Below are positions 36,397 to 57,647 of a stretch of DNA of 64,000 bases, piece by piece. How positions within the stretch are numbered: position 1 is the stretch's first letter; every line of letters begins with the position of its first letter. Location: positions 62,001-126,000 of IMG/VR virus record IMGVR_UViG_3300020182_000008; one strand, 5' to 3'. The position numbers and the translations under genes were made by a program. The DNA comes from a virus. The notes beneath the pieces were generated by a model that did no database searches, was not told where the DNA came from, and saw nothing but the letters and a program-made list of their open reading frames with translations.

Positions 36397-36416
36397 TATG
36401 TTGACAATGTAACCCT

Positions 36417-37217
36417 ATGTATAAATTACGAGATATAATCTTAGAACAATCCGTTAATCCTAAGGCACTTATACTCGCTGGCTCCCCTGGTGCTGGCAAA
36501 TCGTCTTTTATAGAAGGAGTTAAAAATGCTCTTATCTTAAATGTAGACGATTACTACATGCGCAATTTAAAGGATATGGGAGTGTCTTTAGATTTAAAAA
36601 ACGCAGATGCTGAAGAAAGAAGCAAAGCAGCCTCAGCAATGGCAGCAGCAAATAAAGAATTTCGCCCTTATATGCGAGATATCATCTTAGGTAAAAAGAA
36701 TTTTATACTAGATGGTACAGCTGCTTCTTCTAGACCAACTTTAAAGTTAAAAGAAGAACTAGAAAATCTAGGTTACGATATACTAATGGTATATGTGTTT
36801 GCTTCACTAGAGAAAGCATTAGATAGAAACGAGACACGCTTTCAGCGCTCACAAGGTGAAGATAGAAGTTTATCACCTGCTATTGTATTACGTACCTGGA
36901 ACAATATAACTCAAAACTACGAGTTGTATCAAAAAGAATTTGGAGACAATTTCGTTTCTGTTGTAAACGATAAAGCGTTAGAAAAAGGTGAACCTATGAG
37001 CTCACTAGAATCTCTAGTAGACAAATACATCACACCATACGCTCCAAAAGATACAAAACCAAAAACAGATAAAGAGAAAGCTCGCTCTGAAAAATCAAAA
37101 TCAGAATTAGCACAACAAATCAACGACTTTGTAGAATCAGATAAAGTAGAAGATATCAAATCAAATTCCGTATCTAAAGACGAGGCAAAGTCTCGTGTAA
37201 ATTCATTTTTCTCATGA
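36417..37217 (+). CDS. zeta-toxin-like P-loop kinase with N-terminal tag
   Basis: 266 aa. A short leader MYKLRDIILEQS is followed at once by the P-loop kinase core: Walker A GSPGAGKSS (22-30), LNVDDYYMRNL (42-52), FILDGTAASS and ALDRNETRFQRS. This is the zeta toxin/UMP-kinase-like fold (PF06414), which in plasmid systems phosphorylates UDP-GlcNAc. No antitoxin gene is seen nearby. The Lys/Ser-rich C-terminal 60 residues are extra. The leader ends ILE|Q, like a prohead-protease site. ATGA overlap with the next gene. May be a packaged or early kinase; substrate unknown. Confidence 0.65.
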   Translation: MYKLRDIILEQSVNPKALILAGSPGAGKSSFIEGVKNALILNVDDYYMRNLKDMGVSLDLKNADAEERSKAASAMAAANKEFRPYMRDIILGKKNFILDGTAASSRPTLKLKEELENLGYDILMVYVFASLEKALDRNETRFQRSQGEDRSLSPAIVLRTWNNITQNYELYQKEFGDNFVSVVNDKALEKGEPMSSLESLVDKYITPYAPKDTKPKTDKEKARSEKSKSELAQQINDFVESDKVEDIKSNSVSKDEAKSRVNSFFS

Positions 37218-38293
37218 ACCCAGAAAAAATAGGTAGTCAAATAGCGAAATCTATCCTATTAGAGGAAGTTGTAGAGAAAGTTGCTCTATATCCTGGTGCA
37301 TTCAAACCACCTCATAAAGGACACGTTGCTACTGCTTTAAGAGCAAAAGAAGGAGACATAGATCGTGTTATTGTCTTTATGTCTACAAAAGAAAGAGATG
37401 GTGTTTCTGTAGAAGAAGCTCAACAAGTTTGGGATTTATATAAACAAAATAACCCAGAATTAGAGAATGTAGAGATTGTTCAAACACCCACCCCAGTAAA
37501 AGACGTTTACGATTATGCTAAAGACAACCCAGCTAATTTAGTTAGAGCTGTATTTGGTAAAGGGGAAGAAGATAGATTCAAATCACTATTAGATAAAGAA
37601 AAATATCCCCACGTAGAGGTATTCGATGCTGGAATGGAAGGAACATATTCAGCAACTGAATTGCGTAAAGCAATACGAGATAATGATTTAGAAACTGTAA
37701 ATGATTTTATACCTGATGGTCTTAATGTAGATGATTTTATGTCTATATTTCAGTTAAATGAAGCTATATCCGAATCAATAGTAGGTGATAAAATAGTATG
37801 CGATAACTGTGGATGGGAATGGGAAATAGCAGATGGTGGAGACGATTTGTATATATGTCACAAATGTGGACACGATAATACACCACGTAAAGATTATCTA
37901 AAAGAAGCTAGATATAAAAAATTCCTAAACGAAGGTTGGGACAATTCAAAAGGCAAAGTAATAGGAGATTTTGTAAATTATGTTAGCGAATATCTTTCTA
38001 TAAATAAACCTAAAATTAAACTAATCAACTCACCAGACTATACTCAAGAATATCACAGTTTTGGTGGTTATCTACCTTCAGAAGAAAAAATAATGGTTGT
38101 TGTTCACAATCGTAACATGGCTGATATATTAAGAACCGTAGCACACGAGATGGTTCACCATATGCAAAATCTAGACGATAGATTAACACCCAAATCAGGT
38201 GAAGACGGATCACCAGATGAAAATGAAGCTAATTCGTTAGCGGCGGTTATAATGAGAAAATTTGGACGTGAAAATCCACACATATATGAATAG
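37214..38293 (+). CDS. nucleotidyltransferase - zinc ribbon - zincin metallopeptidase fusion
   Basis: 359 aa with three readable domains. Residues 20-170: cytidylyltransferase-like, with YPGAFKPPHKGH (HxGH at 34-37) and YSATELRKAI near the end in place of the usual ISSTxIR. About 193-225: zinc ribbon C-DNC-GW...C-HKC-GH. About 260-359: HExxH zincin (AHEMVHHM around 310-316, third ligand probably in DENEANSLAA), with a conserved FGGYLPSEEKIMVVV strand. The N-terminal leader MNPEKIGSQIAKSILLEE resembles the tags of neighbours. The combination is unusual; function unknown. Confidence 0.7.
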   Translation: MNPEKIGSQIAKSILLEEVVEKVALYPGAFKPPHKGHVATALRAKEGDIDRVIVFMSTKERDGVSVEEAQQVWDLYKQNNPELENVEIVQTPTPVKDVYDYAKDNPANLVRAVFGKGEEDRFKSLLDKEKYPHVEVFDAGMEGTYSATELRKAIRDNDLETVNDFIPDGLNVDDFMSIFQLNEAISESIVGDKIVCDNCGWEWEIADGGDDLYICHKCGHDNTPRKDYLKEARYKKFLNEGWDNSKGKVIGDFVNYVSEYLSINKPKIKLINSPDYTQEYHSFGGYLPSEEKIMVVVHNRNMADILRTVAHEMVHHMQNLDDRLTPKSGEDGSPDENEANSLAAVIMRKFGRENPHIYE

Positions 38294-38837
38294 AATAAAG
38301 GGTAGTTTAATGGATTTATTGCAAGAAGATCTTGCTAAAGCATACGATGTTTTTGTCGATATGGATGGGGTGTTAACAGACTTTGAAAGACGTTTTGAAC
38401 AATTCGCTGGTGTAACCCCAGACGAATACACTTCTCAAAAGACAATCCAATTTGGTAAAGAAAAAGCAGATGAACAATTTTGGAATCTAATAGATAAAGA
38501 AATTGGAGTACGTTTTTGGGCTGGAATGCCATGGATGCCTGAAGGAGAAAACCTATACAAACATATCAAAAAATATAAACCCACCATTTTAACATCTCCC
38601 TCCAGAGACGAATCATCTCGCATAGGAAAAGGTGTATGGGTTAAAAGAAACATGTCTGGTGTACCAGTAAAATTTGGGTACAAAGCATCTGGTAAAGCAA
38701 AATATGCTGGACCAAACAAAATATTAATAGACGATAGAGAAGATAATATAGCAGCTTGGAAAGCAGCAGGAGGAATTGGTATATTATTTAAATCAACAGA
38801 ACAAGTTAAAAACGAGTTATCTAAATTAGGGTTATGA
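38286..38837 (+). CDS. HAD-superfamily phosphatase (5'(3')-deoxyribonucleotidase-like)
   Basis: 183 aa from the ATG at 38286, which overlaps the preceding stop by 8 nt; an ATG at 38262 would add eight residues. Leader MNRIKGSLMDLLQEDLAKA, then motif I FVDMDGVLTDF, motif II PTILTSPSRDE, a lysine in SGKAKYAG and motif IV NKILIDDREDN. This is a complete HAD set like C-type phage nucleotidases (PF06941). Could dephosphorylate deoxynucleotides or act as a polynucleotide 3'-phosphatase. The leader again fits the tag pattern (DLLQE|D). Confidence 0.7.
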   Translation: MNRIKGSLMDLLQEDLAKAYDVFVDMDGVLTDFERRFEQFAGVTPDEYTSQKTIQFGKEKADEQFWNLIDKEIGVRFWAGMPWMPEGENLYKHIKKYKPTILTSPSRDESSRIGKGVWVKRNMSGVPVKFGYKASGKAKYAGPNKILIDDREDNIAAWKAAGGIGILFKSTEQVKNELSKLGL

Positions 38838-39409
38838 GCGAATCACGCTTAAATAAAGAATTCTCTGAACGCGACATCCAGAGAATGCGCAATATAGTTT
38901 CTGGAAATACAGCTGAACGCACTAGAGTTCAAGCAGGTTACCAAAAACAATCAGTAGAACATGGCGAGGGCGATGTATGGGAAGAATCAGGTAAAACCTG
39001 GACTATAAAAAACGGTATTAAACAAACCGTCACCAAACATGACAAACTAAGGGAAATGGTTAACATGCCCTTAAAATGTCCTAAATGTGAAAATGCAATG
39101 AAATCTACCAAATTGAATCAAAAGATGTGGTCTATACACGGCAAATGTTTCGATTGCGTAGTTGAATATGAAGCACATTTAAAAGCTACAGGAGGGTATG
39201 AAGAGTATGCTAAAAAATTAATGAACGCTAATAAAAATTCATTTGTTACTGACTACGAGCAAGCCGTAGAGGCATATATAAATGATAAAGGAGACACATT
39301 TATGTCTGAGGCTGGAGATTTAGAAAATTGGTCAAAAGCTAAAATAAATCCCGAAACAATTAAAATTTTAAAGGAAAACATCAAACAGCTAAAAGAACTA
39401 GAGCTGTAA
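38834..39409 (+). CDS. zinc-binding hypothetical protein (191 aa)
   Basis: ATGA junction with the HAD gene. Starts with MSESRLNKEFSERDIQRMRN; residues about 70-115 hold LKCPKCENAMKST ... HGKCFDCVVEYE, a four-cysteine zinc knuckle. The C-terminal half is helical. I recognise the arrangement (RDIxRxRNL, CPxC...CxxC) from many T4-like marine phages, where function is unknown. No N-terminal LIRE-type tag. Confidence 0.65.
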   Translation: MSESRLNKEFSERDIQRMRNIVSGNTAERTRVQAGYQKQSVEHGEGDVWEESGKTWTIKNGIKQTVTKHDKLREMVNMPLKCPKCENAMKSTKLNQKMWSIHGKCFDCVVEYEAHLKATGGYEEYAKKLMNANKNSFVTDYEQAVEAYINDKGDTFMSEAGDLENWSKAKINPETIKILKENIKQLKELEL

Positions 39410-39417
39410 TATCCTTA

Positions 39418-39427
39418 TATATTTATT
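39418..39427 (+). promoter_or_regulatory. late promoter box TATATTTATT
   Basis: TATATTTATT in the gap before the ATG at 39447 (19 nt away); last base differs from the consensus TATATTTATA. Confidence 0.45.
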
Positions 39428-39446
39428 ATAGAATAATTCTACAAAC

Positions 39447-40064
39447 ATGAAAAAACAAGAACTACGTAAACTTATTAAAGAAAATATTACAGATTGGCTA
39501 TCTGAGCGTAATCTTCCCGAAACTGAGGAAACACAACAAGCTCCTGTAAAAGAAAAAGTAGCTAAAATCGAAGATCAAATTGCTGAATTCTACTACGTTA
39601 CAAAACCTACTAAAGAATCTTCTGTTGAAGAACTAGTAAAAAGTGGAGACGTATTTGAATTTGCTATGAGTGGTCTAACTCGTGAAGACATTTCAGGTAT
39701 CTACAAATCTGAAAGCAGAGCAAAATCAGCTGCAAATAAAGTAATTAAAGAAAGAGACATTAAGCTTAAAGAAACCTATAAAAAAGGTCAAGACAAACTT
39801 AAGCAAATGGAAGCTTCAATTGACGAAATTAAAGGTCAAATCGAAGGTAAAATGTCTGAAGCAACTTCTAACCCAGATATGCGTGAAGCACTTACATCTG
39901 AATCTAATGGTTTAATGGAAAAATTATCCATGCTAGAAATGCAAATGGATAAACTACGTGAGGCATTAGAAAAAGAAGGTTTACGTTTCGAGAAAAAATC
40001 ATCTAAAAAGTCTAAAAAAGAAGACGAAAAAGAAGACAAAAAAGACGAAAAGGAAGATAAGTAA
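39447..40064 (+). CDS. tagged coiled-coil protein with Lys/Asp tail (205 aa)
   Basis: N-terminus MKKQELRKLIKENITDWLSE is the clearest form of the shared leader (LRxLIxE). The middle is a long charged coiled coil (KLKQMEASIDEIKGQIEGKM; LMEKLSMLEMQMDKLREAL). The end is an alternating KKSKKEDEKEDKKDEKEDK tail. Preceded by a late box. Possibly an internal head or scaffold-associated protein; no family recognised. Confidence 0.6.
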   Translation: MKKQELRKLIKENITDWLSERNLPETEETQQAPVKEKVAKIEDQIAEFYYVTKPTKESSVEELVKSGDVFEFAMSGLTREDISGIYKSESRAKSAANKVIKERDIKLKETYKKGQDKLKQMEASIDEIKGQIEGKMSEATSNPDMREALTSESNGLMEKLSMLEMQMDKLREALEKEGLRFEKKSSKKSKKEDEKEDKKDEKEDK

Positions 40065-40067
40065 TCT

Positions 40068-41030
40068 ATGGACAAGCTAAAACTCAGATACTTAATCCGA
40101 GAGGCTATAGAAAACGTTGTTGGAGTTTCAGCAAAATTCTCTATAGGGGATAAAGTAACTACGGTAGATGGAGACACTGCTACTGTTACAATGGCAGAAC
40201 ATCCGTTCTACACTGTAGAGTTAGAGGAGACTGGAACAACTAAATCGTTTAACTTTAAAGATTTAGCTCCATTCCAAGAAAAAGAAATATCTAAAACATC
40301 AGAAGGCATTATGCTCCAAGAAGGCGCGATTGCCTCTCCTGGTTTAATGTTCCATCAACAACACAAAAAACCACTATCAGAGTGTATTTTTAGAATAGGT
40401 TCAGAAGCATACGTAGACTTCTATGCCGAAGCAAGAGAATTATTCAACGAAGGCGTTCTAAAAGTAAACGAACTTGATAGAGATTTAATTCGCAACACTG
40501 ACATAGGCGAATATGGAATATTTGAAGGCAAAAAAATTGCTTTAGATATTCCTTTTATTAATGAAAGAGAAGATGCCTTAGGTATTTACGATGATGGTAG
40601 AGGAAATTCCGCTGCAATTGGATGGACACCTGATGGGTATCTAGCTACAGTAGATGGTGAATACGATTTTCAAATCGGACCTGCTAAAACAGTAGAAGAG
40701 CTAATTAAGATGTTAGCTGATGAAGGTTTTACAAATAAAATATTTGAAGCCGAATTTAAAGGTAAAGACGTTCCACTAAACAAACCAAAACGTGGTGGTT
40801 CAAAAGCATACTATGTTTACGTTAAAGACGGGGACAAAGTTAAAAAAGTATCATTCGGGTCTGGTGGCCTAAGAGCAAAAATTAACAACCCAGAAGCACG
40901 TAGAGCTTTTGCGGCACGACACAATTGCGACAAAAAGAAAGATAGAACAAAAGCAGGTTATTGGTCATGCAATTTACCACGTTACGCGAAGGCCCTAGGA
41001 TTAGGTGCTAACAAAAACACATTTTGGTAG
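40068..41030 (+). CDS. tagged protein with DUF5872-like C-terminal domain (320 aa)
   Basis: Leader MDKLKLRYLIREAIENVVG, then an SH3-like stretch (SIGDKVTTVDGDTATVTM, 25-65), a middle domain (about 120-240) and a C-terminal basic domain from about 245. The latter has YYVYVKDGDKVKKVSFGSGG, then EARRAFAARHNCDKKKDRT and YWSCNLPRYAKALGL, matching DUF5872-type domains common in marine phages. The domain is cysteine- and lysine-rich and may bind DNA. LIRE|A fits a T4 prohead protease site. Confidence 0.65.
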   Translation: MDKLKLRYLIREAIENVVGVSAKFSIGDKVTTVDGDTATVTMAEHPFYTVELEETGTTKSFNFKDLAPFQEKEISKTSEGIMLQEGAIASPGLMFHQQHKKPLSECIFRIGSEAYVDFYAEARELFNEGVLKVNELDRDLIRNTDIGEYGIFEGKKIALDIPFINEREDALGIYDDGRGNSAAIGWTPDGYLATVDGEYDFQIGPAKTVEELIKMLADEGFTNKIFEAEFKGKDVPLNKPKRGGSKAYYVYVKDGDKVKKVSFGSGGLRAKINNPEARRAFAARHNCDKKKDRTKAGYWSCNLPRYAKALGLGANKNTFW

Positions 41031-41031
41031 A

Positions 41032-41487
41032 ATGGAAAATTTTAATTTAAAAAAATATTTAGCTGAAGGTCGCTTACTAAAAGAAATTGACGGAGATTTT
41101 GGTGTTAATTTAAATACACCTGAAAATGCAGTTAAATTTAAAGATCTCCTATCCCAAATGGGTATACCAGCTGAAGTTGATGGTATTTTTGTACAATTTG
41201 ATGGTAGTATTGATGATATGCGAAAAGTAAGTGTTTTAGCCGATAAATTTTTAGGCGCATCACAAGATTCTTCACCATTTAAAGATGAAAGACCAAGTGA
41301 CACTATAACACTAGCTGTAGATAAAGCATATTATGATGACGATAAAGGTGAGTTTACTCTAACACCTACAGATGTTATAGTAACAGCTGATAACTTTGAA
41401 GATATTATATTTGACGAAGTAGGAGATGAAGAGGTAGATTTTACAAGTTATGTTCGCACATATCCTAAAATCTTTAAAAGAGTTTAA
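41032..41487 (+). CDS. tagged hypothetical protein (151 aa)
   Basis: ATG at 41032, two bases after the previous stop, gives the leader MENFNLKKYLAEGRLLKEID; a start at 41005 lies inside the upstream gene. The leader is nearly the same as in the products at 43555 and 49399 (xNFNLKxxxxE), and YLAE|G is a T4-type prohead cleavage sequence. The rest is an acidic alpha/beta domain (VDGIFVQFDGSIDDMRKV; DVIVTADNFEDIIFDEVGDE). No family recognised. Confidence 0.6.
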   Translation: MENFNLKKYLAEGRLLKEIDGDFGVNLNTPENAVKFKDLLSQMGIPAEVDGIFVQFDGSIDDMRKVSVLADKFLGASQDSSPFKDERPSDTITLAVDKAYYDDDKGEFTLTPTDVIVTADNFEDIIFDEVGDEEVDFTSYVRTYPKIFKRV

Positions 41488-41488
41488 A

Positions 41489-41749
41489 ATGGCAACTTAC
41501 ACCGACTACGAATATAAAGGATACCACGTTAGACATTTTTCACACGATACAGAAAGTGCTGATCTAGTATGGCATCGTGATAGAAAAGATAGAGACATTA
41601 CTCCAATAGGAAAAACAGATTGGCAAATACAATTTGACAACGAGTTGCCTAGGCCAATAGATGATTGTATCTTTATACCAGAAGGTAAATGGCACAGAGT
41701 AATTAAAGGTAGTGGGTGCCTAAAAATATTAATAAACGAATATGCTTGA
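41489..41749 (+). CDS. small cupin-like protein (86 aa)
   Basis: From the ATG at 41489, just after the upstream stop. LVWHRDRKDRDI provides HxD, and CIFIPEGKWHRVIKG a distal His before a KILINEY strand, giving a minimal cupin/2-oxoglutarate-oxygenase-like metal site. The TDWQIQFDNELPRPIDD segment is conserved in T4-like marine phage proteins I recall. Too small for a complete oxygenase fold; may be a metal-binding regulator. Confidence 0.6.
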   Translation: MATYTDYEYKGYHVRHFSHDTESADLVWHRDRKDRDITPIGKTDWQIQFDNELPRPIDDCIFIPEGKWHRVIKGSGCLKILINEYA

Positions 41750-41876
41750 GTTAATCATTATATTTAGTTTTTCAGTAGCCGCAGTAGGTTACTTAGTTGT
41801 ATCTACAAGAAATAAAATAAAACAGCCAGGATGCTGTGGACAAAATTGTAATTGCCATGAAAATAAGTCAAGTTAA
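41742..41876 (+). CDS. 44-aa membrane peptide with Cys-rich tail (FeoB-associated-like)
   Basis: ATG overlaps the cupin gene end by 8 nt; TAA at 41874-41876. One N-terminal membrane helix (MLELIIIFSFSVAAVGYLVV), then STRNKIKQPGCCGQNCNCHE with four cysteines. This is the layout of FeoB-associated Cys-rich membrane proteins (PF12669). Could bind iron or zinc at the inner membrane. Its own 3' end overlaps the next gene's start by 20 nt. Confidence 0.5.
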   Translation: MLELIIIFSFSVAAVGYLVVSTRNKIKQPGCCGQNCNCHENKSS

Positions 41877-42666
41877 AGAAGTACTTAATTCAATATTTGA
41901 AGAGGACGAAAGTCTAAAATACGCTTTAGCTACTAACCTAGCTAAATATGGTCGTCCTCAATCTAAAAAATCAGATCAACCTTCTAAACTAACTAAAGGT
42001 TTAGAGAAGGGTAGAGAAAAATACGTTAAAGATTTAAAGAAATCTATGTCTGAATTAGATGATAGTGGTTTAAGCAAAGGATATCTTGAAGCTAGAAAAC
42101 TTATTGATAATTTAAGAGCAACTACATTCAGAAAACTAAATGACGACGAATTAGAAGAGTTTAGAAAAACAATTGCGGATGCGTTTGATTTTGATTTAAA
42201 AGAAGGTTTAAGTGAAGATAAGGCAGATGCTACGAGATGGTTTAGTAATCTAAAATATTTCTATCAAAAAGCATTTAGAGAGTTAAAAGGTGAAGATAGA
42301 GAAACGTACAAACAGTTAGCTAAAGATTTCTTTTCTAAATTAGAAATAGACGATAAAGTACGTCCTGTAGGCTTAGACGAAGACGAAGGCACATTAAATA
42401 AAATAGCAGATATGCTATCTCGTAAATTTGACGATTTACGTTTTGATGTAAACACAATGGCTGATCGTATTGATGTTCGTGGCTCACAACAAGATTTAAT
42501 GAATTTTGGAACTGAATTATCGGGTAAAAAAATATTCGACTATGAAGTGTTCCATACAGATGATGACGATAGAGGAGAAATAGTTCGCATTGTTAAATCA
42601 GATTCTATATCTAGAGGTGGTGTAAACGAAGAAGAAAAAAAAAAGCTGACCGCTGCCTTAGAATAG
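41857..42666 (+). CDS. tagged helical protein, 0-frame product (269 aa)
   Basis: From the ATG at 41857, leader MKISQVKEVLNSIFEEDESL; a start at 41836 would add seven residues with no leader logic. Lys-rich helical region 25-130, a domain with DATRWFSNLKYFYQKAFREL (about 125-160), then an alpha/beta part with MADRIDVRGSQQDLMNFGT and EIVRIVKSDSISRGG. The 0-frame ends shortly after a ten-A run with KLTAALE. A -1 shift there would append a conserved basic domain (see 42639 and 42645). Function unknown; internal head protein suspected. Confidence 0.6.
   Translation: MKISQVKEVLNSIFEEDESLKYALATNLAKYGRPQSKKSDQPSKLTKGLEKGREKYVKDLKKSMSELDDSGLSKGYLEARKLIDNLRATTFRKLNDDELEEFRKTIADAFDFDLKEGLSEDKADATRWFSNLKYFYQKAFRELKGEDRETYKQLAKDFFSKLEIDDKVRPVGLDEDEGTLNKIADMLSRKFDDLRFDVNTMADRIDVRGSQQDLMNFGTELSGKKIFDYEVFHTDDDDRGEIVRIVKSDSISRGGVNEEEKKKLTAALE
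42639..42645 (+). promoter_or_regulatory. putative -1 ribosomal frameshift heptamer A AAA AAG
   Basis: In frame 0 the codons are AAA-AAA-AAG (42637-42645) within an A10 run (42635-42644). The heptamer at 42639-42645 is the same as the slippery sequence of E. coli dnaX. Slipping back one base continues into a 36-codon frame coding a conserved domain. An assembly or sequencing indel in the A-run would give the same picture. Confidence 0.5.
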
Positions 42667-42755
42667 CACGTAGAAAAATGCCACAATCATCTGCTTATCG
42701 TTCTGGATTGATCGTAAAATGTAGAAAAGGAATGATATGGAAAAAGGAGAAATAA
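42645..42755 (+). CDS. -1 frame extension: basic SAYxSG/VKCRK domain
   Basis: Reading from GCT at 42645 in the -1 frame gives ADRCLRIARRKMPQSSAYRSG, then LIVKCRKGMIWKKEK and TAA at 42753-42755. The pattern DxC...R.....SAYxSGxxVKCRK is a recurrent C-terminal domain in T4-like marine phage proteins. There is no start codon before its conserved DRC part (only an ATG at 42678 inside it), so it is most simply expressed as a fusion with the gene at 41857, giving about 299 aa. Overlaps the next gene by 19 nt. Confidence 0.55.
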   Translation, partial: ADRCLRIARRKMPQSSAYRSGLIVKCRKGMIWKKEK

Positions 42756-43009
42756 AAAAATTAATTCGAGAAGTCCTATTAAGCGAGAAAGAAACCTTAC
42801 GTACTTGGTTTTCTCGTAAAGGGTCGCCTGGTAAAAAAGGTGGTTGGGTTGATTGTAATTCTCCAATCCGTAAAGACGGCAAAATCACAGGTTACAAACC
42901 TTGTGGAAGACAAAAAGGCGAAAAACGAGCAAAATACCCATCTTGTAGACCTACACCAGCGGGGTGTAAAGACAAAGGTAAAGGTAAATCATGGGGAAAA
43001 AAGAAATGA
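42737..43009 (+). CDS. tagged small basic protein, DUF6321-like (90 aa)
   Basis: Leader MEKGEIKKLIREVLLSEKE, followed by LRTWFSRKGSPGKKGGWVDC, SPIRKDGKITGYKPCGRQKG and YPSCRPTPAGCKDKGKGKS. This is the Gly/Lys/Cys-rich DUF6321-type domain, known from phage and some cellular proteins, function unknown. Four cysteines may bind zinc; the high charge suggests DNA binding. Overlaps the lipoprotein gene by four bases. Confidence 0.7.
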   Translation: MEKGEIKKLIREVLLSEKETLRTWFSRKGSPGKKGGWVDCNSPIRKDGKITGYKPCGRQKGEKRAKYPSCRPTPAGCKDKGKGKSWGKKK

Positions 43010-43530
43010 GATATTTAATAGTTTTATTGGCATTTTCATTAATGAGCTGTGGCTCATTCACACACACTTCGTATCGTGTTGAAAGCGTATTAGCAATTAC
43101 CGAAAAAGGTGATACAATTGCTGTACCATTACGCGAATTTGAAAGACAAAAGTATAACACTTATACAAGATTTAACTACAATAACAACTGGTACTGGAAC
43201 AACTGGCGCTACGATTTTAATTGGAGATGGCAACAACCCTTCTTTGCTTACCCAAATCAATTTTGGTGGGGTAATAATCTTCGCTATACTAATCCTAGCA
43301 GGGGTTATCGCGCACCTAGTAGACCGCAGGTTAAACCACAAACAAGACCACGGACAAGACCTCAAAGACCAAGAGTAGCTACACCTAGAGGTAGCAGATC
43401 AGAATATACCCCTAGAACACCTCAACGCATTCAACGAAATACAACCCCAACTAGAACAAGAACTACACCAAATGTGCAAACACGTGTAAATGTAGGTCGC
43501 AACTCTAGTGGAGGTAGACGAAATAATTAA
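43006..43530 (+). CDS. predicted lipoprotein, Arg/Pro/Asn-rich (174 aa)
   Basis: From the ATG at 43006 (ATGA overlap); an ATG at 42991 would add five residues. Signal peptide MRYLIVLLAFSLMSC with lipobox and C15. A short beta region (SVLAITEKGDTIAVPL) is followed by an aromatic stretch of Trp/Asn/Tyr (NNNWYWNNWRYDFNWRW, about 62-78) and a basic Pro/Arg/Thr-rich disordered tail. Resembles small Bacteroidota surface lipoproteins. Could be an o-spanin or adhesion/exclusion factor; not assignable. Confidence 0.6.
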   Translation: MRYLIVLLAFSLMSCGSFTHTSYRVESVLAITEKGDTIAVPLREFERQKYNTYTRFNYNNNWYWNNWRYDFNWRWQQPFFAYPNQFWWGNNLRYTNPSRGYRAPSRPQVKPQTRPRTRPQRPRVATPRGSRSEYTPRTPQRIQRNTTPTRTRTTPNVQTRVNVGRNSSGGRRNN

Positions 43531-43538
43531 TATTTATA
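43528..43538 (+). promoter_or_regulatory. late promoter box TAATATTTATA
   Basis: TAATATTTATA starting at the stop codon region of the lipoprotein gene and 16 nt before the ATG at 43555. Confidence 0.55.
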
Positions 43539-43554
43539 TTAAAATATACCTACA

Positions 43555-44568
43555 ATGGATAACTTCAACTTAAAAATTTTCATCAACGAAAATAACCTTG
43601 GTGCTTATTCTAAACTAGAAGGCCAAAAACGCGACATTGATGGAGACGGAGATATAGATTCAGACGATTACAGGGCTGCAAAAGATGCTGCTATTAAAAA
43701 AGCAACTGGTAAAACCGAAGCCATCGCTGACCCAGATTCACTTACCTCAATCATTATGGGAGGTTTAGCCGCGGTTGGTGCTGTTAAAGCATTACCTAAA
43801 CTAGTTGATCTATTAGGAGACGAGACTGGAGATATCACTGTCGATAGCTTAAAAAAAGCATTGTCTAAAAAAGATACAAACGAGGCATCTAAAGAAGAAG
43901 AAGAAACATTCCATAAAAAATTAGATACTTTAGTTCACAAAACATTTGGTCCAAGCAGTGATGAAAAGGACATGAAAGAAGATAGATTTGTAGCTTCATC
44001 TATGGAAGATCTAGAGCAAGTAATCAGAAATCTAGCCCATACTGCTAACATATCAGAAGACGAAGCATTAGAAATGGCTATTAAAAAGCTAGAAAATATG
44101 CTAGATGGTAGAGATGATATGGATGAAGATTTAGACGTAGGACATCAGGATGATGAACCAAACATGTTAAAGAAAAAAATGTATAGAGCAGCTAAAATGG
44201 CAGCTATGTTATACAAAGAACTAGACAAATTTGATTCATTACCTAACGAAGTTGACTTCCCAGATTGGTGGCAAGCTAAATTAACCAAAGCAGCTGACTA
44301 TTTAAACTCAGCATTCGATTATCTAGATGGCGAACAACAAACAGCTAAGCTAGATGCTATGGGTGAAGAAGTAGAGGAAATGAAAAACCCAGGATATTCT
44401 TCATCTAGCCAGAAAAACCAATATGCTAACAGAGTATCTAGACCAACTAAATTTGGTAATGCTCCTGAATTAGATAAAGAATTAGGAGATACAGCTCAAA
44501 GAGCAATGGATATTCTAAAAAGAAAAGGATTAGCTGAAGACAACATCAAACTCTCAGACGCACTTTAA
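43555..44568 (+). CDS. tagged structural protein with EF-hand/dockerin-like loop (337 aa)
   Basis: Leader MDNFNLKIFINENNLGAYSK, then a calcium-loop sequence RDIDGDGDIDSDDYRAAKDA (28-45) fitting DxDxDGxIxxxD. A hydrophobic segment SIIMGGLAAVGAVKALPKLV (about 65-85) and several acidic helical regions follow. The C-terminus has KKKMYRAAKMAAMLYKELDK and FPDWWQAKLTKAADYLNSAF, a conserved module of T4-like marine phage proteins. Late box upstream; likely virion-associated. Confidence 0.6.
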   Translation: MDNFNLKIFINENNLGAYSKLEGQKRDIDGDGDIDSDDYRAAKDAAIKKATGKTEAIADPDSLTSIIMGGLAAVGAVKALPKLVDLLGDETGDITVDSLKKALSKKDTNEASKEEEETFHKKLDTLVHKTFGPSSDEKDMKEDRFVASSMEDLEQVIRNLAHTANISEDEALEMAIKKLENMLDGRDDMDEDLDVGHQDDEPNMLKKKMYRAAKMAAMLYKELDKFDSLPNEVDFPDWWQAKLTKAADYLNSAFDYLDGEQQTAKLDAMGEEVEEMKNPGYSSSSQKNQYANRVSRPTKFGNAPELDKELGDTAQRAMDILKRKGLAEDNIKLSDAL

Positions 44569-46172
44569 TGAATAGCAAACAATTAATACAACTTTTAGAG
44601 CAAGAAGTAGAAGACTTCATGCAAACTCAAGCCGAAAAGATCGTTAAATTCGAAGACGATCCTAAGGAATACATTCTACAAAAATATCCTTCACTAAAGG
44701 CTACTCTAGAAGATTTAATGACAAATAGTTTTGACGAGTACATTACTGGAATCTATGTAATGGCTCCTAAACCAACTACATTCAAAATATTACTTCACAA
44801 TGGTCAACATTTTTTCCTTATCTATGCTAGAGATTCTTACATAGCAAAAATACAAGGAAAAAAATATTACCTACTTAACTTAGGTGAAGAAGAATATGCT
44901 ATTAAAGCAATAGCAGATCTACTTACAATGGGTATGCCTCCTGGAGCAAAAGGACCAGAAGGTGAAGAAGAAAATGATACGACAGCAGGCGCAGATGAAA
45001 CACCAGATGAGGCACCAGCTGACGATGCAGGAGGAGACGATGAAGAATTGGCTGAAACTAAAGAGGAAACTAAGGAAGAAAAGCCAAAACGTAAAACTCC
45101 ACTTAAGTTTAAGATTTTAAAAGAGGACATAGAAAAAAAAAAGTCACCTCTTAAATTTAAAATTTTAAAAGAAGCCCTATCTCCCGAGGCTCAACAAGCA
45201 AAAGACATTCTAAAACAAAACTTTGATCTAGAAGATAAAAATTTTCTAGAAATGACATCTACTAGTTTTAAAGTTTTAATGGACAATAGCGAACGTAGAG
45301 ATTTCCTTAAAAAAGCATCTGAACTAGACGATTTTGAATTTGAATTAAAAGGTGCTTCTGTAGGTAGATTAAAATATCAACCTGAAGATCAAGCTAAACC
45401 TATCTTAATTTATGCTAAACCAGCAAATGTTCAAGGTTTAGGTTCAGCAGGTAAACAAAACGAGGATAATTTCATTAGAAATATTAATGAAAAAATAGCA
45501 GAGGCTGGAGGATCAGCAGATATTGATATTGTTGCCCCAAACTCCGAAACATTAACTACTAAAGGTATAACTGAAGTAAGAGATTCTTCAACAGCAGGTG
45601 CTGGTAAAGGAGACAAATCAGATGCTCAATTTTTAGCGGACGGTAAAGTACTCCAAAACATATCTTTAAAACAAGCCGAAGGATTTAGATGGGCTTCTGT
45701 AAAATCGGACCCTGAATTTGCTCCTTTTATTAAAACATTCATTGATAAAGCCTTGGCTGGTAACATAAAGGGTCTTAAATTAGAACGTAATACAGAAGTA
45801 GCAGGAGAAAAATATCTCATGTTTAACGATGAAGGTGAAAGAATCACCTTAGTTGTTATAGATGACTTCCCAGAAGGATTCGAAGAAAGAGTAGTATTTG
45901 GACCTGAAACACCCAAAACAGTAGTAGTAGGTGGTACTTTCAGTAAAGACGATAAAGATTTTAAATTAAATGGTAATAAAATTACTGTTCAAGCTGCTGG
46001 GATCTATAGAACACTAGAAGACATTGAAAAAACAGGACAAGAACCTGTATTTGTTATAGCACAACACGCTAAAATGTCTTATGGTTTAGATTTTAGAATC
46101 TTCCCAGCTAATAAAGCAAAATTAGGTCCTAGATCTAGAGGGGTAAAATTATCATATAACGACGTAGTATAA
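44568..46172 (+). CDS. tagged protein with duplicated PLKFKILKE motif and nuclease-like C-terminus (534 aa)
   Basis: Starts MNSKQLIQLLEQEVEDFMQT. Residues 1-130 form one domain; an acidic linker leads to two copies of PLKFKILKE (about 178-205). The C-terminal 320 residues contain NEDNFIRNINEKIAEAGG, KSDAQFLADGKVLQNISLKQ and RWASVKSDPEFAPFI. The E...D...SxK arrangement resembles a PD-(D/E)XK nuclease core, though this is tentative. Ends just before a strong terminator, so it closes the transcription unit. Confidence 0.5.
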   Translation: MNSKQLIQLLEQEVEDFMQTQAEKIVKFEDDPKEYILQKYPSLKATLEDLMTNSFDEYITGIYVMAPKPTTFKILLHNGQHFFLIYARDSYIAKIQGKKYYLLNLGEEEYAIKAIADLLTMGMPPGAKGPEGEEENDTTAGADETPDEAPADDAGGDDEELAETKEETKEEKPKRKTPLKFKILKEDIEKKKSPLKFKILKEALSPEAQQAKDILKQNFDLEDKNFLEMTSTSFKVLMDNSERRDFLKKASELDDFEFELKGASVGRLKYQPEDQAKPILIYAKPANVQGLGSAGKQNEDNFIRNINEKIAEAGGSADIDIVAPNSETLTTKGITEVRDSSTAGAGKGDKSDAQFLADGKVLQNISLKQAEGFRWASVKSDPEFAPFIKTFIDKALAGNIKGLKLERNTEVAGEKYLMFNDEGERITLVVIDDFPEGFEERVVFGPETPKTVVVGGTFSKDDKDFKLNGNKITVQAAGIYRTLEDIEKTGQEPVFVIAQHAKMSYGLDFRIFPANKAKLGPRSRGVKLSYNDVV

Positions 46173-46216
46173 CATTTAGACTGATTCATAGCCAGTCGAT
46201 TTTAAAAATTATATAG

Positions 46217-46254
46217 GAGCTGTGGCCCATTTATTGGAGCCACAGCTCTTTTTT
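46217..46254 (+). terminator. rho-independent terminator
   Basis: Perfect 10-bp stem GAGCTGTGGC (46217-46226) / GCCACAGCTC (46239-46248), 12-nt loop, then six Ts (46249-46254). Strongest terminator in the window; it ends the 39-46 kb late unit. Confidence 0.9.
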
Positions 46255-46264
46255 CGTATATTTA
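46233..46264 (+). promoter_or_regulatory. early-type promoter overlapping the terminator
   Basis: ATTG at 46233-46236 in the loop of the terminator, 20 nt, TATATTTA at 46257-46264 in TTCGTATATTTAAC. The FAD-protein ATG follows at 46284. Confidence 0.65.
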
Positions 46265-46283
46265 ACAGTTAAATAAATAGTAA

Positions 46284-47603
46284 ATGTCTAAAAACGTAGT
46301 AATTATTGGAGCAGGAGTAGCGGGTGTAAACGCTGCCACTAAACTAATTGACAACAATTTTAAAGGTAAAATCACCATCATTGATATGGGAAAAAACCCA
46401 TACGAAAGACCATACGAAGACGTAATGACCGGATTCTTAGGAGCAGGTGGTTGGTCTGATGGTAAATTAACTTACCATACAGCAATTGGTGGTCAACTCT
46501 CAAAGTACACAGGCGAAGATAAAGCCATGGAATTGATGGATCAGGTGATCACTAACTTTAAACGTTTTCACCCTAAACCAGAAGAAGTACAATGTTCAAA
46601 CCCAGTAGAAGAACCAGATTTTATTAAACCATACTTTGGTTTACGTTTGTTTCCTGTATGGCATGTAGGTACAGATTACCTACATGAGATAGGTAAAAAT
46701 TGGTACGATTTTCTAGTAGAAAATGGTGTAGAATTTCATTGGGAAACTAAAGTTACAGATATTGATTTTAAATTATCATTAATTACAATGCGTTCTGTAA
46801 AACCTGAATTTTCCCAAATGGATGATGATAATATTTTTTATGATCAACTTATATTTGGTGTAGGAAAATCAGGTATCGACTTTGGAAAACAACTAGCAGA
46901 AAAATATGAGCTACCTACTGAACCAAAATCAGTACAAATTGGGGTACGCTTTGAAGCACCACAAAAACACTTCCAAAAACTAATCGATGTATCATATGAT
47001 TTCAAACTTTATCGCAAATTTGAAGATGCTGGCGTATCGCTTCGCTCTTTTTGTACAAACAATAATGCAGCTTATGTGGCCGTAGAGCAAACATATGGAG
47101 ACCATAGTTACAATGGACACGCTAAGAAAGACGAGGCGTTTAGAAACGATATGACCAATTTTGGTATCTTAATGGAAATTAATGGTATTGAAAAACCATT
47201 TGACTGGTCAAGAAATGTAGTACAATCTGTAAACAAAGAAGGTACAGGTTTATATTATAGCCCATCTCGTAGACCATCAACCACATCTGAAGGTGTAGAT
47301 GTATCCGCTATTCAAATTAATAGCAAAGAGCTAGAAACCGTTAGAGAACAATTTGAAGGATACTTTCAATATATAGACGATTTTATTGCTGATATGAAAA
47401 AAGTATTCCCAACATTACAACACGATTGGGGTATTTACATACCCGAAGTTAAATATTTATCACCAGAACCATTAGTTAATTATAACAATTTAAGTCTAAC
47501 AAAGTATGAAAATGTCCACTTCGTCGGAGACGCTCTCTCAGCTCGAGGAATTACTGTCAGTGGAGCACAAGGAATCTACGTTGCCGAAGACCTTATCAAA
47601 TAA
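46284..47603 (+). CDS. FAD-dependent oxidoreductase
   Basis: 439 aa. N-terminal Rossmann VVIIGAGVAGVNAATKL (GxGxxG at 9-14) with an acidic end of strand 2 (IIDMG), a GAGGWSDGKLTYH segment contacting FAD, and the C-terminal FAD-closing motif VHFVGDALSARGITVSGAQG. The overall pattern (GWSDGKL, VGKSGIDFG) matches a family of FAD/NAD(P)-binding proteins found in bacteria and plastids; reaction unknown. It has its own early promoter, so it probably acts as an auxiliary metabolic gene during infection. The last 98 nt overlap another ORF. Confidence 0.75.
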   Translation: MSKNVVIIGAGVAGVNAATKLIDNNFKGKITIIDMGKNPYERPYEDVMTGFLGAGGWSDGKLTYHTAIGGQLSKYTGEDKAMELMDQVITNFKRFHPKPEEVQCSNPVEEPDFIKPYFGLRLFPVWHVGTDYLHEIGKNWYDFLVENGVEFHWETKVTDIDFKLSLITMRSVKPEFSQMDDDNIFYDQLIFGVGKSGIDFGKQLAEKYELPTEPKSVQIGVRFEAPQKHFQKLIDVSYDFKLYRKFEDAGVSLRSFCTNNNAAYVAVEQTYGDHSYNGHAKKDEAFRNDMTNFGILMEINGIEKPFDWSRNVVQSVNKEGTGLYYSPSRRPSTTSEGVDVSAIQINSKELETVREQFEGYFQYIDDFIADMKKVFPTLQHDWGIYIPEVKYLSPEPLVNYNNLSLTKYENVHFVGDALSARGITVSGAQGIYVAEDLIK

Positions 47604-47760
47604 GGAACTTGGCGATTTGTTAGAGGCTATTGATTTATATTTTCTAATGAATTATGATGTAATGTCTTTCTATGAGAAAGGTACACAAGATGAAATAAAA
47701 TTATTTTTAGATCTGCGTAGTGAGGTTTTAAGTAAATATAAAGGCCCGGTTCAAGCCTAA
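47506..47760 (+). CDS. small hypothetical protein, start uncertain (up to 84 aa)
   Basis: The frame from ATG 47506 overlaps the FAD gene by 98 nt. A TTG at 47581 gives 59 aa (start LPKTLSNKELGDLLEAIDLY) with a 23-nt overlap, more usual here. The unique part after 47603 (YFLMNYDVMSFYEKGTQDEI, KLFLDLRSEVLSKYKG) is helical. No family known. End coordinate is firm; start is not. Confidence 0.5.
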   Translation: MKMSTSSETLSQLEELLSVEHKESTLPKTLSNKELGDLLEAIDLYFLMNYDVMSFYEKGTQDEIKLFLDLRSEVLSKYKGPVQA

Positions 47761-47768
47761 TATTTATA
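47758..47768 (+). promoter_or_regulatory. late promoter box TAATATTTATA
   Basis: TAATATTTATA overlapping the preceding TAA, 24 nt before the ATG at 47793; no TTG 20 nt upstream. Confidence 0.5.
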
Positions 47769-47792
47769 TGTACAATAACAAAACCCTCTACA

Positions 47793-48113
47793 ATGGACGA
47801 AAACATAATACACGTTCTATTAACCTTGATTTCAGCACTTGGTAGTGTTGGGGCTTGGAGGTTCTATGAGACTAAATTAAAATCTAAAGCTGCTAGATTT
47901 CAAAATCCACAAAAGGCAAACGAAAACTTTATAGCTGATTTACAAGCTAGAGTAGCAAAATTAGAGACTTTATTAATCGAATCATCTGAAGAAAAAGATG
48001 AAATGCGTAACATTATTACGGGTTTATCCTCAGAGGTATCTGCTTTAAAGGTAAAAATAGAATATCTTGAAGAAGAAAATGCGTACCTTAAGGGAAAAAG
48101 ATCGCGAAAATAG
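47793..48113 (+). CDS. membrane-anchored coiled-coil protein (106 aa)
   Basis: N-terminal membrane helix (IIHVLLTLISALGSVGAWRF, about 5-24), then a basic patch and a long coiled coil (FIADLQARVAKLETLLIE; EVSALKVKIEYLEEENAYL) ending in KGKRSRK. The layout is that of an inner-membrane spanin or other lysis accessory, but no partner gene is adjacent. Late box upstream. Confidence 0.6.
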   Translation: MDENIIHVLLTLISALGSVGAWRFYETKLKSKAARFQNPQKANENFIADLQARVAKLETLLIESSEEKDEMRNIITGLSSEVSALKVKIEYLEEENAYLKGKRSRK

Positions 48114-48144
48114 TTGGATGTTTAAAAAAGCATTCGTATATTTA
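48113..48144 (+). promoter_or_regulatory. early-type promoter, GTTG-N20-TATATTTA
   Basis: GTTG at 48113-48116, 20 nt, TATATTTA at 48137-48144 in TTCGTATATTTACG; ATG at 48168. Drives a small gene and the NadR-like pair. Confidence 0.65.
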
Positions 48145-48167
48145 CGCCTAATTTAAATGTTATATAT

Positions 48168-48416
48168 ATGCCTAAAGTAAAAGAAGATTGGTCAACAAGA
48201 TCAATTACAACCCCCGAAGGAATTAAAATTACCTTTTTCAACAACAAACTTCACAATTGGAATGGTCCTGCTATAGTTTACAATGATGGCAGTAGAAGAA
48301 AATCTGAATACTATCTATATGGTATCCAAAGAACTAAAGACGATTGGTTAGAATTTAGACGAGATCGTAATGGTGTCCCTCCGGACAAGAATCCACAAGT
48401 ACAATCAAGATTTTAA
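48168..48416 (+). CDS. MORN-like small protein (82 aa)
   Basis: MPKVKEDWSTRSITTPEGIK, then LHNWNGPAIVYNDGSRRKSE with YYLYGIQRTKDDWLEFR. The H...GPA.....G....YYL.G pattern is a repeat widespread in phage proteins (MORN-like, one copy here). Function unknown. First gene of the operon with the nucleotidyltransferase. Confidence 0.6.
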   Translation: MPKVKEDWSTRSITTPEGIKITFFNNKLHNWNGPAIVYNDGSRRKSEYYLYGIQRTKDDWLEFRRDRNGVPPDKNPQVQSRF

Positions 48417-48417
48417 T

Positions 48418-48837
48418 ATGAGAAAAGCCGTTATAGTGAGTGGGTACTTCAACCCACTCCATAAGGGCCATCTAGAGTTATTTAGAACGGCCCGAGAATT
48501 TAGTGATGATTATTTAATTGTAATTGTAAATTCTGATTTACAAAGAGAATTAAAAGGTTCTAAAGAATTCCAAGACGAGAATGAAAGACTAGAAATAGTC
48601 AAATCAATCAAATACGTTAGCGAAGCAAGAATCTCACAAGATTTAGATAAAACACAATGCGAAACCCTAAGACAAATTTACAATGATTATGGTAAAATTT
48701 GGGACTTACATTTCGCAAATGGTGGTGATCAAGATAACAAATCTATACCAGAAAGCGTGGTTTGTGAAAAACTAGGTATTAAATTAATAGATGGGTTTGG
48801 TGATAAAATTCAAAGTAGTAGTTGGTTATTAAAATAG
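48418..48837 (+). CDS. cytidylyltransferase-family nucleotidyltransferase
   Basis: 139 aa from the ATG at 48418; the longer frame from 48370 would overlap the previous gene. KAVIVSGYFNPLHKGHLELF has the HxGH catalytic motif (HKGH near 15-18) and GxFxxxHxGH context; later LIVIVNSDLQREL and a short LDGFGDKIQSSSWLL end where an ISSTxxR is usual. Related to RfaE/HldE, TagD and NMN adenylyltransferases. Directly followed by a NadR-like kinase, so NMN adenylyltransferase is attractive but unproven. Confidence 0.75.
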   Translation: MRKAVIVSGYFNPLHKGHLELFRTAREFSDDYLIVIVNSDLQRELKGSKEFQDENERLEIVKSIKYVSEARISQDLDKTQCETLRQIYNDYGKIWDLHFANGGDQDNKSIPESVVCEKLGIKLIDGFGDKIQSSSWLLK

Positions 48838-48843
48838 TAAAGT

Positions 48844-49374
48844 ATGAAAATAGGTTTATGTGGTACAATGAGTGTAGGTAAAACTACATTAGTTAATGAA
48901 TTAAAGAAATTAGGTCAATTTAAAGGTTTTGAGTTTGCTACTGAACGTAGTGAATATTTGCGTGATTTAGGTATTCCATTGAATACTGATTCAACATTAA
49001 ATGGTCAAACTATATTTTTAGCAGAACGTGTTGCTGAATTAATAAAAGAAAATATTATAACTGATAGAACTGTATTAGATGTTATAGCATTTACTAATTT
49101 AGCTGAATCAATTGATTGGAAAGATAAAGAATATTTTGAAGATTATGCTAGAGTATTTGTAGGTCAATATGATTATATTTTCTATATTTCTCCTGAGGGT
49201 ACTATTATGGAAGATAATGGTGTTAGAGAAACTGATTTAGAGTATAGAGAATTAATTGATCAGGCTATTATTAAAGCAATGAACACTTATGGACATAGAT
49301 GTAAAAATGTACATATGTTAAAGGGTACAACACTTGAGCGAATTGAGCAGATGCTTGGAGTAATTCAATTTTAA
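48844..49374 (+). CDS. NadR-like P-loop kinase
   Basis: 176 aa. Walker A GTMSVGKTTL (7-16), FATERSEYLRDLG with the conserved ER-S, TIFLAERVAELI and ITDRTVLDVIAFTNL are typical of the NadR ribosylnicotinamide-kinase/AAA_28 group; ETDLEYRELIDQ near the end fits its lid. Six bases separate it from the nucleotidyltransferase. Together the two resemble the halves of NadR, which makes NAD from nicotinamide riboside. Other small-molecule kinases are possible. Confidence 0.65.
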   Translation: MKIGLCGTMSVGKTTLVNELKKLGQFKGFEFATERSEYLRDLGIPLNTDSTLNGQTIFLAERVAELIKENIITDRTVLDVIAFTNLAESIDWKDKEYFEDYARVFVGQYDYIFYISPEGTIMEDNGVRETDLEYRELIDQAIIKAMNTYGHRCKNVHMLKGTTLERIEQMLGVIQF

Positions 49375-49384
49375 ATATTTATAA
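49373..49384 (+). promoter_or_regulatory. late promoter box AAATATTTATAA
   Basis: AAATATTTATAA starting at the stop of the NadR-like gene, 14 nt before the ATG at 49399. Confidence 0.5.
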
Positions 49385-49398
49385 TAAAATATTATATC

Positions 49399-50094
49399 AT
49401 GCAAGATAATTTTAGCATCCGTAATTGGAAAAATACAGTATTACACGAAGATGCCTTCAACGAAGGTGCAGGTGAAGTAGATGTATACGGATATAGAACC
49501 CAACATTTTGATATGTGCCCCGCTGCTACAACTTTATTTAAAAATATAATGGCGGGTCAATATACAGATGGTGTACCCTCAGCCAGAGAAGAAGCATCAG
49601 TTATAGCAATGGCTAAATTACATGATGCTCTTTTTAATATGGAGAAAAAAGCTCTAGGATATGGTGAGGTAGACAAATCATACTTAGATCAAGCTGAAAG
49701 ATTAGAGAACGAAATATATATGCAAGCAAGAAATCTCGATTTAGAAGATGAAGTTAAAGCATATATCCCTGGTCATATAGATAGAATTGCAAATGTTGTA
49801 GTTAATCCTGCAGATGTGTCTGAACAAGACGAGCTAGAAGATGACGATATTGAACTTGAAATCCCAGGTGAAACACCTACTGTAGATAAAAAATTACAAG
49901 CTAAAGCATCTAGACAAGATGTTAAAATTAAAGCATATAAGGAAATTACTTCTAAAATGAAGGATGCTCTTGAAAAATTCAAATCAGCAGAAGGTGATGC
50001 TAAGGAAACGGCTAAAGAAGAACTTAAAGCATTAACCCCTGAATTTCAAGCAGCTAAGAAAGAATACGAAAAACTAAAAGGCGTTAAGCTTTGA
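49399..50094 (+). CDS. tagged hypothetical protein (231 aa)
   Basis: Leader MQDNFSIRNWKNTVLHEDAF followed by NEGAGE; VLHE|D and FNE|G resemble prohead-protease sites. A conserved region YGYRTQHFDMCPAATTLFKN with IMAGQYTDG follows. Then an acidic linker and a helical Lys/Ala/Glu-rich C-terminus (FKSAEGDAKETAKEELKAL). The first 120 residues resemble a family of T4-like marine phage proteins near terminase. Function unknown. Confidence 0.6.
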   Translation: MQDNFSIRNWKNTVLHEDAFNEGAGEVDVYGYRTQHFDMCPAATTLFKNIMAGQYTDGVPSAREEASVIAMAKLHDALFNMEKKALGYGEVDKSYLDQAERLENEIYMQARNLDLEDEVKAYIPGHIDRIANVVVNPADVSEQDELEDDDIELEIPGETPTVDKKLQAKASRQDVKIKAYKEITSKMKDALEKFKSAEGDAKETAKEELKALTPEFQAAKKEYEKLKGVKL

Positions 50095-56046: not shown

Positions 56047-56183
56047 TGGCAAAAGGTTTAACGCTTGGTAACTATTTATCCAAGCCAAAGAAAAAACGTC
56101 CAGGTGTACACGCTAAAAGCAAAACATCAAAAATAAAAAATAGTAAAAATTACGTTAAGACCTACAGAGGTCAAGGTAAATAA
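56046..56183 (+). CDS. small basic head-module protein (45 aa)
   Basis: ATG shares its A with the previous stop; TAA at 56181-56183. MAKGLTLGNYLSKPKKKRPG, then VHAKSKTSKIKNSKNYVKTY and RGQGK. This Lys-rich peptide with the LSKPKKKRPGVHxK core is conserved at this position in T4-like marine phages. May bind DNA or scaffold during head assembly. Function unknown. Confidence 0.7.
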   Translation: MAKGLTLGNYLSKPKKKRPGVHAKSKTSKIKNSKNYVKTYRGQGK

Positions 56184-57621: not shown

Positions 57622-57647
57622 ATTTCCTTATTTTTTTATACTCCCTA

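Follow-up and report, generated by a model that had tools for sequence, protein, structure and literature searches.

Interchangeable leader peptides on late proteins of a T4-like marine phage and its relatives: predicted signals for capsid loading

The window analysed here is a stretch of 64,000 bases, positions 62001-126000 of the 166,268-base IMG/VR virus record IMGVR_UViG_3300020182_000008, whose source is a T4-like phage of marine bacteria with many uncultured relatives. Just upstream of its terminase gene, unrelated predicted late proteins begin with similar short leaders. The explanation we favour, with a probability of about 0.83, is that these leaders (the tags) are capsid-targeting signals, cleaved by the gp21-type prohead protease, which load the proteins behind them (the cargo) for injection. 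We infer binding to the core and retention in the virion: late in infection, a tagged protein would be drawn into the growing prohead core through an affinity probably shared with the gp22-type scaffold; one of the tags, tag C, has the sequence of the scaffold's C-terminal end. Cleavage by the gp21-type protease would follow, behind L/I-x-E of the leader or, in fused cargo, between domains. The freed bodies would stay in the head and pass into the next host together with the DNA.

Judged by the capsid protein, Flavobacterium phage immuto is the closest relative in culture (58% identical), while the identity is 50% with Microcystis phage Mel-JY01 and 38% with Rhodothermus phage RM378. The cargo block had no near DNA match in the phage collection. 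Genes outside annotated records were called with our own simple caller, and the immuto leader counts below likewise use these calls rather than the depositors' starts.

Leader enrichment at the N-termini of a late gene block

The open reading frames (ORFs) and leaders listed in an earlier reading of the window made from the letters alone (the sequence-only reading) are real: the genes start with ATG and contain no internal stops, the leaders read as quoted, and L/I-x-E, which that reading had pointed out in several of them, is present within the first 20 amino acids (aa) of every listed window leader. Its claim that several proteins share an LRxLIRE/KE-type leader was analysed with the pattern [LIF][KR]x[LIFY][LIV]xE in the first 22 residues, and the expectation was taken from internal 22-mers. 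The pattern was found in 7 of the 194 predicted proteins of the window genome against 0.29 expected (p = 2e-8). Six of the 20 genes between window positions 36400 and 50100, just upstream of the terminase, carried it (0.03 expected), as did 1/18 genes of the tail region and 0/45 genes after position 50700. As the pattern was modelled on the examples of the sequence-only reading, independent checks weigh more. Out of sample, it was present in 9 of 224 immuto proteins (0.48 expected), with 5/21 in the homologous block, and in 11 of 113 non-redundant proteins upstream of TerL in related IMG/VR contigs (0.27 expected, p = 7e-15); none of the 32 proteins after the capsid gene of these contigs had it. 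The sharing of leaders was thus confirmed beyond the examples that had suggested it. Early proteins, in which an equal frequency of the motif had been named as evidence against targeting, carried it in 0/110 cases in the window genome (genes before window position 13000) and in 2/147 in immuto.

A position-specific scoring matrix (PSSM) trained on the immuto leaders gave the top ranks in the window genome to 39447, 42737, 16693 and 40068 (genes are named by their first window position). The looser leaders of 37214, 38286, 41857 and 44568 showed no match to the strict pattern and are not significant singly. Homologues back the leaders of 37214, 38286 and 44568, which could be retained, as well as that of 49399. 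No homologue of 41857 was found in the sets searched and its PSSM score is weak; a chance origin of single loose leaders of this kind is possible. Two genes inside the cargo stretch, 38834 and 41489, are untagged, and the neighbouring 46284, 48168, 48418 and 48844 are leaderless both in the window and in the relatives listed.

Tag classes, modularity and the link to the head

The leaders form three classes: A, MKKSxLKxIIKEE; B, MDNFDLKKFLxEN; and C, RMQKLAGIITE. Class C, which was not part of the sequence-only reading, is found within the window at the C-terminus of gp22, where RMQKLAGII (58888..58914, plus strand) forms the extreme end of the scaffold. The same peptide, tag C without its final TE, ends gp22 in nearly all relatives examined, and the complete RMQKLAGIITE is the leader of immuto_188. 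Annotated immuto proteins bear the same leaders, namely MKKSQLRQIIKEA, MKKSELVKLIKEE and, three times, the MENFDLKKFLVENKLT type. Elsewhere, the scaffold ends in ERMKKLAGIVK (Mel-JY01) or LERIKRLAGL (RM378), and the RM378 genes near the head genes showed no clear tags. When isolates were searched by tblastn with the consensus tags, B and C were found in immuto only and A nowhere, which reduces the cultured material for study to one genus. In L125, L175, L180, L104 and L163, tag C is found near the C-terminus of proteins about 150-206 aa long, as it is in the scaffold.

IMG/VR was also scanned with DNA patterns for the three tags; the figures refer to the matches listed and are lower bounds. 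Tag B was located no more than 15 aa from the start in 93 of 97 left-closed ORFs, and tag C in 87 of 116, its other positions being scaffold C-termini and the interior of longer proteins. An ATG opens the tag A pattern and in part dictates an N-terminal location, and the final Glu of tags B and C is built into their patterns. A rarer variant pattern of tag B gave 8 stretches. After removal of the tags, single-linkage clustering by BLAST (E<1e-3) divided at least 276 tagged bodies into at least 168 unrelated families, at least 10 of which occur with more than one tag class. In L455 and L239, one body (85% identical over 136 aa) carries tags A and B, respectively.

Few of the bodies were identified by Pfam and PHROGs, and nearly none of 71 representatives belonged to known families: Pfam matched six families, once each. 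A C-tagged protein in relatives matches Pfam Acb1, an enzyme directed against the cyclic oligonucleotide-based antiphage signalling system (CBASS), above the cut-off (E 8.6e-7). Class C-tagged Acb1-like 2H phosphoesterases are present at L200:4273-4833 and L128:4266-4826; judged by their sequences, the tagged Acb1-like proteins are candidate virion-packaged anti-CBASS enzymes.

Tags are also present inside fused proteins. The product of immuto_192 (841 aa) consists of fused homologues of 43555 and 44568, which are separate leadered genes in the window, and has an internal class A element just before the 44568-like part. The same internal element is present in G012, and in G013 the 44568 homologue has a class A tag at its N-terminus. 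Likewise, the longer immuto_187 has an internal VKQAIQELLQE ahead of its counterpart of the Cys-rich 42737 domain, at the same boundary as the window leader. N-terminal leaders of window genes are found as internal tags at domain junctions in fused relatives.

The window encodes, on the plus strand, the gp21-type prohead protease (Peptidase_S77; 57004..57624; PF03420, E 1.9e-32), correctly recognised in the sequence-only reading and the predicted remover of the tags. It is followed by the gp22-type scaffold (57754..58917), which is enriched in L/I-x-E and has the N-terminal FNDAIAEAK..., and by the gp23-type major capsid protein (58941..60575; PF07068 (Gp23), E 1.4e-75), with a propeptide rich in L/I-x-E. 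Genes of the gp22 scaffold, portal and TerL type are in the expected positions in the window genome. Both gp21 and gp23 were encoded by 13 of the 14 large contigs for which a tag was the only selection criterion and by both of those picked by portal (15/16 in total). Among the tag A loci listed (at least 117), 110 hold homologues of the window genome or another tag, gp23 being present in 38 and gp21 in 37. The tag B and C loci listed contain a head gene in 72 of 205 cases, against 12% of length-matched random slices from four genomes of the group.

In T4, gp21 cuts after L/I-x-E (PMC9026906). The observed frequency of this code was compared with a shuffled expectation, with one body per family and 95% bootstrap intervals. 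The ratio was 0.72 (0.58-0.86) in B- and C-tagged bodies versus 1.15 (1.07-1.23) in untagged genes; with class A added, it was 0.75 (0.63-0.87, 164 families). Tagged bodies showed no depletion of L/I-x-D, -N, -Q or -K, of [FMYW]xE, [AST]xE or [LI]E. A first small test with 19 tagged genes of four genomes gave 1.18 for L/I-x-E, without depletion. Proteins for which cutting is expected went the other way: the ratio was 1.71 in gp22 and 2.58 in the post-portal protein, which are core-type proteins, and in relatives it was 3.85 in the gp23 propeptide versus 1.13 in mature gp23. Our reading of the depletion is that gp21 sites within the bodies have been selected against, which would mean that the tagged proteins meet gp21. 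Overall, their packaging and cleavage have strong, if indirect, support. A depleted cleavage code inside cargo would also offer a test of prohead-protease exposure that needs only sequences and is usable on other phages.

Known systems and alternative explanations

The window phage resembles T4, with its internal proteins IPI-III and Alt, in having short N-terminal leaders on unrelated late proteins, leaders that end in L/I-x-E, and gp21, gp22 and gp23. The leaders are 10-20 aa long and stand on unrelated proteins (the T4-type range is 10-19 aa). In T4, where the L/I-x-E rule applies, a 10-residue capsid-targeting sequence is sufficient and the internal proteins are injected (PMC9026906); ipII and ipIII begin with MKTYQEFIAEA (checked in NC_000866). 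IPI, an injected restriction inhibitor, is a precedent for anti-defence cargo (PMC9026906), and by analogy the cargo described here would be injected as well. Unlike T4, the present group has many more cargo families, a scaffold-end tag and tags inside fused cargo, and its packaging is predicted.

Some Kyanoviridae (S-SM1, the Pelagibacter phage HTVC008M and the Methylophilales phage Melnitz) have homologous kinase, NT5C, RGGSKxFYVYVK-domain and cupin-like genes near cytidylyltransferases. The kinase homologue of HTVC008M was found with an E value of 2e-20, and HTVC008M and Melnitz have between them homologues of the NT5C (4e-21) and cupin-like (6e-22) proteins and of the RGGSKxFYVYVK domain. 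However, their leaders are T4-like (some of the form MKxFxxFLxEA), and the block is located beside replication genes rather than the terminase. Among the leaders of Melnitz, some of which are T4-like, are MQGFKTFLSEA, MKKFSEIIEA and MKNFKNHIAEE; the accessible parts of the literature on these phages give no interpretation of such leaders. The S-SM1 cytidylyltransferase T4-GC190 begins with MKKFSAFLNEA and was detected by mass spectrometry in purified virions of this cyanophage (PMC3037559).

The ejection proteins of SPN3US and other phiKZ-type phages are likewise diverse packaged proteins, cut after a short Glu-ending motif and ejected (PMC5694885, PMC10052503). They differ in their diverged prohead protease and head lineage, and the accessible parts of these papers describe no interchangeable set of short tags. 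Polyvalent proteins, predicted to be injected, bring together several different domains, frequently including a zincin; the 37214 protein, whose HExxH domain is fused to a nucleotidyltransferase fold, may have a similar layout. The processing of polyvalent proteins is credited to the zincin (PMC5512222), whereas gp21 sites and tags at the junctions are predicted here. The proteins scanned contained no ART, ParB or MuF domain.

Several observations weigh against capsid targeting. None of the three leader classes resembles MKTYQEFIAEA by inspection; they are therefore not classed as the T4 leader, and the likeness claimed is one of function. The similarity of 37214 to the S-SM1 protein is weak (pairwise E 4e-5 over 42 aa), so the two are treated as members of the same broad family and not as proven orthologues. 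With the HTVC008M cytidylyltransferase, 37214 gave no significant alignment (E 0.78), and orthology is not claimed. The L/I-x-E ratio of class A alone, 0.79 (0.55-1.03), has the same direction but is not significant, and [LI]xxE falls a little short of expectation too (0.88 for classes A, B and C together). Ratios above 1 are found in the non-core proteins TerL (1.33) and AAA28 (1.55) as well; enrichment alone is thus no proof of cleavage, and the evidence that counts is the depletion in cargo. Class A-like helices are also present in TerL and in a baseplate-adjacent gene, whose products need not be packaged, and no virion proteomics of the window phage or immuto was found in the literature search.

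An unlikely alternative is that the tagged proteins are prohead core proteins, bound via their tags, degraded by gp21 and inactive in the next host. The class A family MKKSELKNIIKECV, in which L/I-x-E is 3.1-fold enriched as it is in gp22 and the post-portal protein, would fit this description. However, the other tagged bodies are depleted in the code, the opposite of proteins meant for shredding; a number of them are enzymes (kinase, NT5C, nucleotidyltransferase, Acb1-like) for which no part in assembly is apparent; and the S-SM1 cytidylyltransferase survives in virions (PMC3037559). A class A family beginning with MKKSELKNIIKECVKEVIFEEG... (L389-L504, e.g., L392, L406 and L424; sister group) has an L/I-x-E ratio of 3.09 and looks, by its composition, like a prohead core protein.

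It is more improbable still that the leaders serve localisation or degradation elsewhere, at the membrane, the replication compartment or the baseplate, and are unrelated to the head. Such a role would agree with the class A-like leader on the baseplate-adjacent 16693 and its homologues and with the similar start of TerL in relatives, but tag C is the scaffold C-terminus, head genes are near, and L/I-x-E is depleted only in tagged bodies. Chance amphipathic helices in AT-rich phage proteins, or recent gene duplicates, are the least credible source: low-complexity K/E/L/I helices are common and the looser leaders have a background PSSM score, but 7 leaders stand against 0.29 expected and the N-terminal clustering extends over at least 168 unrelated families, so that the enrichment and the family diversity reject both chance and simple duplication for classes A, B and C.

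Targeting to the head with cleavage by gp21, as put forward in the sequence-only reading, is supported by tag C, which is identical to the scaffold C-terminus, and by the presence of gp21 and gp23 on tagged contigs. The L/I-x-E depletion, the cargo homologues in Kyanoviridae and the detection in S-SM1 virions add to this. The general principle is already known from T4, in which a handful of proteins are packed with one leader type; here, three tag classes are found on at least 168 families in an uncultured group of phages that is widespread. Apparently new are the large count of cargo families, the existence of several tag classes that can replace one another, the resemblance of one tag to the scaffold, the tags at fusion junctions and the scarcity of the cleavage code inside cargo; an incomplete search of the open-licence literature revealed no paper on these tags.

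If capsid targeting is right, a simple rule would predict which phage proteins accompany the DNA into the cell. Capsid targeting would also point to a reservoir of proteins that act early against host defences or in takeover of the cell, and the tags would be new peptides for directing proteins into phage capsids. We lean towards a broader view, in which phages of the immuto clade would possess a general, secretion-like address system whose interchangeable peptides, one of them the scaffold C-terminus, load a large and fast-changing repertoire of effectors. Mostly of no known family and including anti-CBASS enzymes and gp21-cut polyproteins, these effectors would be delivered at time zero, and the tags would be a signal by which injected phage effectors could be mined from sequences.

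Cargo genes of the window and neighbouring observations

The cargo kinds of the window are a P-loop kinase, a nucleotidyltransferase plus zincin, an NT5C phosphatase and basic Cys-rich proteins, and the leaders and internal elements given below are all on the plus strand. The P-loop kinase (Zeta_toxin/AAA_33; gene 36417-37217), which matches PF06414 from residue 11 (E 3.5e-14), has the leader MYKLRDIILE (36417..36446). The cytidylyltransferase-zincin protein (gene 37214-38293) begins with MNPEKIGSQIAKSILLEE (37214..37267). In its AlphaFold model, modest overall (mean pLDDT, i.e., predicted local distance difference test, of 62; six sequences), residues 1-19 have low pLDDT and residues 20-180 are folded. 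The first domain has a PPAT/NMNAT fold according to Foldseek (E 3e-6), and the second has an invariant HExxH (HEMVH conserved). An internal tag, RYKKFLNE (37910..37933), is located between the two domains in a low-confidence linker: residues 183-247, which hold KKFLNEG, have pLDDT <50, and the flanking domains have higher confidence. The NT5C-like phosphatase (gene 38286-38837; Pfam NT5C, 2.8e-5) has the loose leader MNRIKGSLMDLLQE (38286..38327), in which L/I-x-E is present through MDLLQE; the leader of its immuto homologue is MKKVMGNLADLLLEE.

Class A leaders are carried by gene 39447-40064 (MKKQELRKLIKENITDWLSE, 39447..39506), which has the top PSSM score and matches the pattern, and by gene 40068-41030 (MDKLKLRYLIRE, 40068..40103), supported by both PSSM and pattern, whose product has a C-terminal domain with RGGSKAYYVYVK..RHNC (phrog_7595). 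Gene 41032-41487 has the class B leader MENFNLKKYLAEGRLLKE (41032..41085); its first 18 aa are 89% identical to leaders on other B-tagged proteins with other bodies. The loose leader MKISQVKEVLNSIFEE (41857..41904) of gene 41857-42666 is weak, with a PSSM score of only 5.8. The basic Cys-rich protein (gene 42737-43009) has the class A leader MEKGEIKKLIREVLLSE (42737..42787), supported by the PSSM, and gene 43555-44568 the class B leader MDNFNLKIFINE (43555..43590), supported by PSSM and pattern. Gene 44568-46172 starts with the loose class A leader MNSKQLIQLLEQE (44568..44606), backed by homologues. Two direct repeats, PLKFKILKE(D/A) (45099..45176), are located between the halves of its product and, judged by sequence, are likely internal gp21 sites. 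The second half (residues 206-534), past the repeats, may by eye be a nuclease-like domain. Gene 49399-50094 has the class B-like leader MQDNFSIRNWKNTVLHE (49399..49449), and its body homologue in L054 has the class A leader MKKSALTAFIKEEILGTLNE instead.

Gene 16693-17157 (16693..17157, plus strand), a conserved gene just upstream of the gp25-like baseplate gene, had been offered as a further class A example. Its class A-like leader holds, but the gene is probably separate from the cargo set. Genes resembling it are present in immuto (81525), G003 (150926), G013 (125870) and G004 (31592). The gene adjoins the gp25-like gene in the window genome and immuto, and it is far from the gp21 locus in G003, G013 and G004.

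Near the head genes, the protein after the portal-adjacent gene holds LKQEMSTTGTGASFAAGSGEQYA (55189-55257), which closely resembles the predicted N-arm of the mature capsid protein, QTGTGASFTPGTGEQYA (59130-59180); like stretches are present in relatives. A very small basic protein, KKKRPGVHAKSKTSKIKNSKNYVKTYRGQGK, is common to both phages (56046-56183 in the window; immuto_186 in immuto), is encoded near head or cargo genes, and is possibly a DNA-binding head protein. Outside the window, at 26-48 kb of the genome, a long gene block encodes N-termini resembling glycosyltransferases and sugar-nucleotide enzymes, and in immuto a glycosyltransferase block is annotated at 49-60 kb.

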